A DNA stretch of 64,000 nucleotides from the NCBI RefSeq assembly GCF_002077135.1, contig NZ_LDOS01000001.1, positions 74,219-138,218 of the forward strand, written 5' to 3'. The stretch comes from Metallibacterium scheffleri (GTDB taxonomy: Bacteria > Pseudomonadota > Gammaproteobacteria > Xanthomonadales > Rhodanobacteraceae). The notes beneath the pieces were generated by a model, which worked only from the letters and a program-made list of their open reading frames with translations, had not been told where the DNA came from and did not search any database. Positions within the stretch are counted from its first letter, which is position 1. The number at the start of each line of letters is the position of its first letter. The position numbers and the translations under genes were made by a program. Positions 726-39,207 of the stretch are shown here, in pieces.

Positions 726-882
726 CTCAGAGCCTGCGAAAAATTCCGCGTCGTGCGGAATTTTCATCGGCGCGCCCGGCACAGGTCCGTACGCGCCTGC
801 GCGAATCAGCCACGTGCGTGACCGCTTCGCGTCCGGCCATCCATGGCCGGGCTGAGAGGCTGAAAAATTCACAGCCTCTCAG
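726..882 (-). repeat. Multi-hairpin dispersed repeat, copy A
   Basis: This 157-bp element matches the one at 39050-39207 in inverted orientation, with about six differences by hand alignment (~96%). Read on the minus strand it begins with an 11-bp perfect stem, CTGAGAGGCTG paired with CAGCCTCTCAG around a 9-base loop. A short GGCCATGGATGGCC palindrome follows, and then an AAAATTCC...GGAATTTTT hairpin. The two ends are imperfect inverted repeats (CTGAGAGGCTGTGAA against CTCAGAGCCTGCGAA). Bases 2-4 of the element (TGA) are the stop codon of yceI. It has no coding capacity. It resembles a MITE/REP-like non-autonomous element. Confidence 0.85.
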
Positions 883-1490
883 CGCTTCTTCGCCGCGGGC
901 TTGGCGGCAGGCTTGGCCGCATCGGCTTCGAGCGTGATGCTGATCTGCACGGCATTCGAGACCATCGGCACATAGGCGCTCACGCCGAAATCGCTGCGCT
1001 GGATCTCCGCCGTCGCGTTGAAGCCAATCGCCGGCACCTGCATCATCGGGTTCTCGCCGATCTTGTTGAGGTGGGCGTGCAGCGTTACCGGCCGGGTCAC
1101 GCCGTGCGCGGTCAGCAGACCCTCGATGGTGAACTCGCCGGGCTTGGCGCCGGGGATCACCTTGGTGCTCTTGTAGGTGATGTCGGGGTACTTCGCGGCG
1201 TCGAAGAAATCGGCTTCCTTAAGGTGCGCGTCGAGCGCCGGCACGTGCGTATCCAGCCCGGACATCGGCATGGTCGCCTGCACCGATGACAGCGCCGGAT
1301 CCTGCGCGTCATACACCAGCGTGCCCTTGACCGTGTTCATGTTGGCGCAGGGCATCGAGAAACCGAAATGGTCCCAGCAGAAGCGCACCTGGGTATGCCC
1401 GAGATTGAAGTGATACGTCACCGGCGCAGCCAGCGCCGGCAGTGTGACCAGGGCCAGGCCGGCCGCGAGCAATGCATGGGAAAAACGCAT
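879..1490 (-). CDS. YceI family periplasmic protein
   Basis: This 203-residue protein has a Sec signal peptide (MRFSHALLAAGLALVTLPALA, then A/P) followed by the YceI lipocalin-like beta barrel. Typical blocks are YHFNLGHTQVRFCWDHFGFS, FFDAAKYPDITYKSTKV, the LTAHGVTRPVTLHA strand pair and the closing SDFGVSAYVPMVSNAVQI. Family members bind isoprenoid or amphiphilic molecules in the periplasm; the ligand is not predictable here. The ATG at 1490 is preferred because GGAGGA lies 7 bases upstream and the signal peptide starts there. The C-terminus is a low-complexity KPAAKPAAKKR tail, and its TGA belongs to the repeat at 726-882. It is 43 bases downstream of the nitroreductase and probably co-transcribed. 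Confidence 0.9.
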   Translation of the reverse strand: MRFSHALLAAGLALVTLPALAAPVTYHFNLGHTQVRFCWDHFGFSMPCANMNTVKGTLVYDAQDPALSSVQATMPMSGLDTHVPALDAHLKEADFFDAAKYPDITYKSTKVIPGAKPGEFTIEGLLTAHGVTRPVTLHAHLNKIGENPMMQVPAIGFNATAEIQRSDFGVSAYVPMVSNAVQISITLEADAAKPAAKPAAKKR

Positions 1491-38630: not shown

Positions 38631-39053
38631 ATGTCACTGCTGCTATTCGCCCTGCTTGCCTTGTTCGTGGCCACCGCCTTTCTGGCGGTGAAGCGCATCC
38701 CCGAAGGCACGGTGGTCACGCTGACCCGTTTCGACGGACACGCGCGCCGCCTGGAGCCGGGCACGCACTTCGTGCTGCCATTGCTGGAGCGGGTCAAGCA
38801 TCGCATCAGTCTCGGCGGCCACATGCTCGATCTGAGCGCGCCCGAGCTGCACGCGCGCGTGTATTGGCAAGTGCTGGAACCGGCGCGCGCCGAGGGCGTC
38901 ATCGAGCGCGCCGAAGCCCTGCTCAGCCAGACCGCCGTCGAAATATGCGCGGCGCAGCGCGGCGCCGAGCCGGCGCAGTTGAAGGCTTCGCTCAACCAGC
39001 GCCTGCGCGATTTCGGCCTGCTGATCACGCGCATCGAGCTGCTGTCGGCCTGA
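38631..39053 (+). CDS. Small SPFH/band-7-like membrane protein
   Basis: This 140-residue protein has an N-terminal membrane helix (LLLFALLALFVATAFLAV), then RIPEGTVVTLTRFDGHARRLEPGTHFVLPLLERVKHRISL. This is the opening of an SPFH (stomatin/prohibitin) domain. The rest (VYWQVLEPARAEGVIERAEALLS, LNQRLRDFGLLITRIELLS) keeps the second half of a minimal SPFH fold, but there is no coiled-coil tail, so it is much shorter than stomatins or HflK/C. The function is unknown. Its stop codon lies inside the hairpin element at 39050. Confidence 0.7.
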   Translation: MSLLLFALLALFVATAFLAVKRIPEGTVVTLTRFDGHARRLEPGTHFVLPLLERVKHRISLGGHMLDLSAPELHARVYWQVLEPARAEGVIERAEALLSQTAVEICAAQRGAEPAQLKASLNQRLRDFGLLITRIELLSA

Positions 39054-39207
39054 GAGGCTGTGAATTTTTCAGCCTCTCAGCCCGGCCATGGATGGCCGGA
39101 CGCGAAGCGGTCACGCACGTGGCTGATTCGCGGCGGCGCGTACGGACCTGTGCCGGACGCGCCGATGAAAAATTCCTCACGACGCGGAATTTTTCACAGG
39201 CTCTGAG
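39050..39207 (+). repeat. Multi-hairpin dispersed repeat, copy B
   Basis: This 158-bp copy is ~96% identical to 726-882 in inverted orientation. It begins CTGAGAGGCTG / CAGCCTCTCAG (perfect 11-bp stem) and ends AAAAATTCC...GGAATTTTT plus CACAGGCTCTGAG, with imperfect terminal inverted repeats. TGA at bases 2-4 is the stop codon of the SPFH-like gene, exactly as copy A supplies the stop of yceI. It is followed 15 bases later by the rsmG -10 box. Confidence 0.85.

Follow-up and report, generated by a model that had tools for sequence, protein, structure and literature searches.

Why do two copies of one short hairpin sequence each begin at the stop codon of a gene and face that gene in the same way? 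The question arises from a 64,000-nucleotide stretch of the Metallibacterium scheffleri genome (hereafter, the window), for which the initial annotation described a two-copy element of about 158 bp whose second to fourth bases are the TGA of the preceding gene. Local alignment of the copies at 726 to 882 (reverse strand) and 39050 to 39207 (forward strand) gave 153 identities, 5 mismatches, and 1 gap, in agreement with the estimated identity of about 96% and the opposite orientation. Both copies read CTGAG...CTGAG from the gene side, both use the TGA of the left pentamer as the stop codon of the preceding gene, and the postulated terminal inverted repeats are present (AGGCTGTGAA... / AGCCTGTGAA...). 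The number of internal hairpins had been put at three; five were found. The features of the two copies and their host genes are as follows.

726 to 882, reverse strand: element copy 1, 157 bp, read from the end of the YceI gene
878 to 882, reverse strand: left CTGAG of copy 1; its TGA (879 to 881) is the YceI stop codon
726 to 730, reverse strand: right CTGAG of copy 1, the second copy of the target
852 to 882, reverse strand: hairpin 1 of copy 1, the terminal palindrome, with the stop codon within its stem
738 to 765, reverse strand: hairpin 5 of copy 1, terminator-like in appearance (A-tract, GC stem, U-tract) and not flagged by the terminator scan
39050 to 39207, forward strand: element copy 2, 158 bp
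39050 to 39054, forward strand: left CTGAG of copy 2; its TGA (39051 to 39053) is the stop codon of the SPFH-like open reading frame (ORF)
39203 to 39207, forward strand: right CTGAG of copy 2
39050 to 39080, forward strand: hairpin 1 of copy 2
39167 to 39195, forward strand: hairpin 5 of copy 2, terminator-like in appearance, its GC stem having one broken pair, and not flagged by the terminator scan
879 to 1472, reverse strand: YceI-domain gene ended by copy 1 (PF04264, E value of 1.2e-39; start codon from our own gene caller)
38631 to 39053, forward strand: weakly Band_7/SPFH-like ORF ended by copy 2 (E value of 5.1e-05, 23.8 bits against a cutoff of 23.6)

The two host genes belong to different families. 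Copy 1 holds only short ORFs or ORFs that enter from the flanks, and it has no transposase of its own.

The element proved to be far more abundant than the two copies first reported. The M. scheffleri genome (G000; 3.76 Mb in five contigs) contains 16 full-length copies as well as fragments; the full copies are pairwise 89 to 100% alike (mean, 94.7%), and two are identical. A covariance model at an E value of 0.01 detected the element in 89 of 147 Rhodanobacteraceae genomes, representing 17 of 26 genera, with at most the best 20 candidates per genome scored. By DNA search, 19 of 61 genomes were matched, the source genome included, several of them in the hairpin core only. A contig pattern scan with TGA left out of the pattern retrieved 17 stretches, 13 of which are in Rhodanobacter or Mizugakiibacter records (including Mizugakiibacter sediminis skMP5, a Rhodanobacter MAG, and Rhodanobacter sp. 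B05). The other four (Pseudovibrio, Clostridia, Niallia, and Streptomyces) were taken as chance matches. Within the 64-kb window, Rfam gave no match at gathering score; a relaxed search (E value up to 10) of 3.2 kb around copy 1 returned four matches, all under their gathering scores. No description of this element family was found in the open-licence literature. We note that copies L007 (M. scheffleri) and L032 (genome G012) follow what, from its identical last codons, seems to be the same gene; this site is thus probably shared within the genus.

Mobility was established from sites that lack the element. The flanks of 13 copies from one Rhodanobacter genome (G172) were joined and searched in 40 genomes of that genus. 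All 40 genomes were matched, with many matches spanning the junction. Among 20 orthologous places fetched, 2 were filled, both in the close relative G198, and 18 were empty, the latter covering 12 of the 13 copies. Every empty site has a TGA stop at the junction (18/18), and 11 have the full CTGAG; in the other seven, one or two bases of the pentamer differ, and some sites have small indels alongside. Because the empty orthologous sites end in TGA, the gene with its stop codon predates the insertion, and the stop is preserved when the element arrives. Thus, of the two readings offered by the initial annotation, insertion into existing stops favors a preference for targets at gene ends over a retained 3'-end module. 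The 18 empty sites, together with the different families of the two window host genes, refute the notion that the copies are chance resemblances or old gene tails that never moved, to which we give practically no credence.

The element is therefore mobile, non-autonomous, and MITE-like, with the target CTGAG left at both ends. It is short, repeated, and without its own transposase, and it possesses terminal inverted repeats, a target duplication, and empty sites; ends in common with an autonomous element, a further hallmark of MITEs, were found in M. scheffleri only. The right CTGAG is more decayed than the left, with TGA kept in 53/64 and 64/64 copies, respectively, in a set for which the left end was one of the selection criteria. 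Beyond CTGAG, no motif was found other than codon periodicity and a mild excess of a preceding G (36/64 copies against 21/64 background stops of M. scheffleri; p = 0.012). A palindromic target wider than CTGAG was considered and rejected, as flank pairing was close to that of swapped partners (0.47 versus 0.46 at distance 1; 0.48 versus 0.37 at distance 2).

We consider it likely that a MITE-like element inserts at CTGAG with preservation of the stop codon, that it has been moved in M. scheffleri by an IS1182 transposase as the most likely agent, and that off-stop copies have been purged or were never made. According to this model, a small non-autonomous element would insert at the pentamer CTGAG and leave CTGAG at each end. 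With the target at a gene end (C-TGA-G), the left copy would keep the TGA, and the protein would be unchanged. Since CTGAG is asymmetric, the element would always face the gene in the same way, and its fixed orientation requires no separate cause. In M. scheffleri, the transposase would be supplied by a resident IS1182-family insertion sequence, whose ends nearly match those of the element and whose target is CTGAG as well. Copies elsewhere may have been removed by selection or never made, and the burden of copies directly after a stop codon would be small, perhaps in part thanks to the terminator-like hairpin that they carry.

Stop-codon location was scored with our own codon-score script, trained on M. 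scheffleri and applied to the other genera as well. In M. scheffleri, the left CTGAG ends a gene in 15 of the 16 full copies (14 clear and 1 weak, L013); the exception, L011, adjoins an apparent tRNA end. Overall, 93 copies were scored, of which 73, from several genera, have a CTGAG-type end (any base, TGA, and then G or A). The scored set excludes truncated copies (L045, L047, and L050), L061, the core-only relatives L063 to L082, the M. scheffleri fragments, the second copy in L175, and covariance matches not fetched; the loci of relatives were chosen by hand from the match list. Among the 73 CTGAG-type copies, 64 are clearly at stops, 3 are weakly so (L013, L150, and L157, the last with a stronger coding signal in another frame), and 6 are not. 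Three of these six (L049, L053, and L130) have an in-frame stop 6 to 12 nt upstream; L011, L154, and L156 do not. Of 20 copies with other ends, 16 are not at stops and 4 are (L147 at TGA, L178 at TAG, and L180 and L185 at TAA). L032, which is outside the 93 and was scored separately, is at a stop. The survey of the genome and its relatives thus returned many copies, nearly all CTGAG-type ones on stops, instead of an isolated pair whose placement at stops has no parallel.

Across 464 kb of the genome, we counted 380 CTGAG sites within genes, 98 in intergenic DNA, and 64 at stops; these counts include a few sites of the two window copies themselves. Landing at non-coding CTGAG would therefore be expected to place 64/162 copies (about 40%) at stops. 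Against this expectation, the observed 15/16 in M. scheffleri gives p = 9e-6 (14/16 gives 1e-4), and 67/73 overall gives p = 8e-21 (64/73 gives 2e-17). When the comparison is restricted to sense sites up to 150 nt after a stop (64/80 expected), 67/73 gives p = 0.005. This latter test hangs on the weak calls: p rises to 0.014 for 66 copies, to 0.06 for the 64 clear ones, and to 0.14 for M. scheffleri alone. All of these p-values are rough, given the non-independence of copies within one family. That the element falls precisely on the stop codon is largely accounted for by its target. What calls for an explanation is its confinement to sense gene ends, and the excess over the CTGAG expectation reflects either selection or targeting.

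A candidate mobilizer bears on this choice. Besides the element copies, the end pattern of the element located in M. scheffleri a second short family and an insertion sequence (IS) of about 1.67 kb with five copies (L210 to L214). The IS copies are 99.7 to 100% alike, with two longer alignments at 98 to 99% that apparently run into the flanks. One IS end, AGGCTGTGAGTTTTTC, agrees with the left end of the element at 15/16 bases, and the other, AGGGTGAGAGTTTTTC, agrees at 13/16. The ends adjoin CTGAG/CTCAG except for one end of L211 (GTCAG). The 483-amino-acid IS protein matches the NCBIfam IS1182 model NF033551 (347 bits against a cutoff of 270) and Pfam DDE_Tnp_1_6 and DUF772. With both ends and target common to the element and an IS1182-family member, this transposase is most likely the mobilizer of the element in this genome.

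Outside M. scheffleri, the partner does not occur wherever the element does. At an E value of 1e-20 or below, an IS1182 transposase was found in only 3/147 genomes of the family, compared with 89/147 for the element; a lost, diverged, or unsampled partner must hence be assumed elsewhere. End-pattern searches of G172, G124, G013, and G114 retrieved no autonomous partner. The only pair of ends 1 to 3 kb apart in these genomes is formed by the outer ends of two neighboring short copies in G013, and the intervening DNA showed no transposase-like ORF. A distant transposase homologue (25% identity) resides in a 1.69-kb element of G030 with ends CCAGGCTGTGTGAAAAC, and no convincing element ends were found for an IS1182-like gene in G161 (L246).

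The IS lies at a stop in 1/5 copies by codon score or 2/5 by open frame, versus 15/16 for the element (p = 0.004 and 0.03, respectively). Because an IS with the same target is mostly off stops, the choice of CTGAG alone does not explain the location of the element. Judging by its identity, the IS is young. The contrast may mean either that off-stop copies are purged with time or that the element is aimed differently. Shortened copies of the element are also found at stops (7/8 distinct fragments, the exception being L024, a divergent core relative), a pattern more easily reconciled with early selection or targeting than with later retention.

Active targeting would mean a preference of the transposase for sites where transcription or translation ends, or for hairpins close by, in the manner of IS1272 and TnSha1. 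These IS1182-family elements are reported to act on stem-loops, many of which are terminators, and to replace or cut them with no duplication of the target (PMC5678879 and PMC4923244), and three of seven TnSha1 sites are predicted terminator hairpins (PMC4923244). Both excesses at stops given above are in keeping with targeting. However, the test against nearby sense sites weakens without the weak calls, no extended motif accompanies the target, flank pairing is near that of swapped partners, and the M. scheffleri IS shares the target and is mostly elsewhere. We regard active targeting as unlikely. Rather doubtful as well is the fuller proposal that the element homes to gene ends, with a target that embeds the opal stop, a preference for gene 3' ends beyond the availability of CTGAG, and a conserved hairpin chain that becomes the transcript 3' end. 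Replacement of a stem-loop, the mode of IS1272, was considered separately and rejected: the element repeats a 5-bp target, and at its empty sites the flanks meet at a single CTGA(G), no stem-loop having been lost.

The single-strand fold of the element is conserved. None of 200 shuffled sequences was as stable as copy 1 (z = -6.38 as RNA and -6.65 as DNA). RNAalifold analysis of 31 copies yielded five hairpins (six helices) with 48 pairs, of which 14 have double changes (1, 2, 3, 3, and 5 in hairpins 1 to 5, respectively). Altogether, 97.3% of the cells are paired, with 100 double-change cells against a shuffle mean of 34, and the covariation score was 0.237, compared with 0.121 for shuffled alignments and at most 0.045 for slid ones. 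The number of pairs with double changes is barely above that of shuffles (14 versus 11.7) and the number of further pair types is not (37 versus 36.7). The relatedness of the copies can inflate the shuffle comparison, and the covariation evidence is mostly one contrast, that of the Mizugakiibacter type with the rest. The aligned copies point to compensatory changes in the hairpins.

Several structural variants were observed. L014 has the hairpin 5 loop GTCGT in place of the ACGAC of other copies, as if the hairpin had been flipped. Versions of about 204 bp also occur (L137, L143, L149, L154, L156, and L208), with an extra hairpin module in the hairpin 2 loop of L143 and L208. The latter is the G198 orthologue of L140; its module spans about 46 bases and is absent from G172 at the same site.

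In hairpin 5, a GC stem with covariation is flanked by an A-tract and a U-tract, both nearly invariant, a layout that recurs in Rhodanobacter copies. This hairpin resembles an intrinsic terminator, and a terminator role is plausible from this anatomy. A terminator and promoter scan detected no terminator in copy 1 and nothing at hairpin 5 of either window copy; its one match in copy 2 is at the left arm of hairpin 1. Within 260 nt downstream of 34 copies from M. scheffleri and G172, the neighboring gene is co-directed in 18 cases and convergent in 11, with none found in 5. Four copies (L134, L145, L142, and L135) lie 5 to 21 nt before a co-directed downstream gene, using the start calls of our own script, which makes a strong-terminator reading awkward. 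At such junctions, almost any insertion away from the stop codon would disrupt one of the two genes.

These data can be weighed against the idea that the element serves as a 3'-end module, landing widely and persisting after stops because its hairpins terminate transcription or protect the mRNA end. The paired cells and double changes described above, the nearly unvarying tracts of hairpin 5, and the retention of two orthologous copies in both G172 and G198 are consistent with such a function. On the other hand, decayed and shortened M. scheffleri copies, including solo 31-bp hairpins, are at stops too, so the persistence of a copy there does not require that it be fully functional. The copies immediately ahead of co-directed genes fit this idea poorly, as do the outcome of the terminator scan and the presence at some sites of a palindrome further downstream that belongs to the site itself (L140 and L144, one with a T-tract). 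A 3'-end module is thus possible, if on the unlikely side, as the main reason for the location of the element.

The strong conserved fold would also suit a REP-like element that a RAYT/Y1 transposase mobilizes in single-stranded form, and GTAG-tagged REPs are reported often to supply TAG stops to flanking ORFs (PMC3733652). The terminal inverted repeats and the CTGAG at both ends of the element argue against this route. Moreover, no Y1 gene was found at an E value of 0.001 in the element-bearing genomes G114 and G103 (11/16 genomes have one), and the element is near only 1/22 Y1 loci. RAYT/Y1 is accordingly not supported as a partner, and we judge this mode of movement very unlikely.

Compared with described repeats, the element behaves somewhat like MIRU and GTAG-REP elements. 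MIRU elements have the target DTGA. They are described as mobile repeats found inserted at start codons, where their internal ORF is coupled to the gene, and like the present element they occupy a codon signal and do the gene little damage (PMC12548453); the site of the element is the stop codon and not the start codon. Like GTAG REPs, it is a palindromic repeat whose end can supply a stop codon (PMC3733652). In contrast to these REPs, it lacks a GTAG or CGTC end tag, is four to eight times longer, has inverted repeats and a target repeat at both ends, and shows no RAYT link. Among the small bacterial mobile sequences covered in a review, the Correia/NEMIS, RUP, and YPAL MITEs are likewise under 200 bp with inverted repeats and target duplication, and YPAL too inserts at or beside dyads (PMC2229807). 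The fixed CTGAG at stops and the five-hairpin chain distinguish the element from these families, a separation drawn from descriptions and Rfam only. Taken together, the element is real, widespread, and mobile, and it is a variant of an already known kind of element.

The element shows how a sequence can multiply within a gene-dense genome and do little harm, as its 5-base target repeat preserves the stop codon, and each copy may bring its own transcript end. Many copies and many empty sites in one family constitute a natural experiment on whether transposon location is set by targeting or by selection; the same material is suited to the study of how mobile elements reshape mRNA 3' ends.

Finally, related repeats were encountered. 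The second short family in M. scheffleri has similar ends (AGGCTGTGAAAAA... beside CTGAG) and a different interior, and all four of its loci are on a stop codon (L215, C1:290423-290602; L216, C1:736292; L217, C2:1387727; and L219, C2:2080506). Divergent relatives occur in G103, G036, G077, and G075 (L170 to L172 and L176 to L181), several with ends CTAG|CAGGGTGTTGAAAAA; most are not on stops, and a few are on TAG or TAA stops. The middle hairpins of the element are part of a wider hairpin-repeat group in the order (L063 to L072 in G039, G049, and G058), some of which are in tandem at 127 or 133 bp, with loop motifs that look alike (for example, CCATGGATGG) and stems that differ. In M. scheffleri itself, four tandem 59-bp repeats with a GGCCATGGATGGCC hairpin (L073, C2:1150007-1150199) apparently start just past a gene stop.
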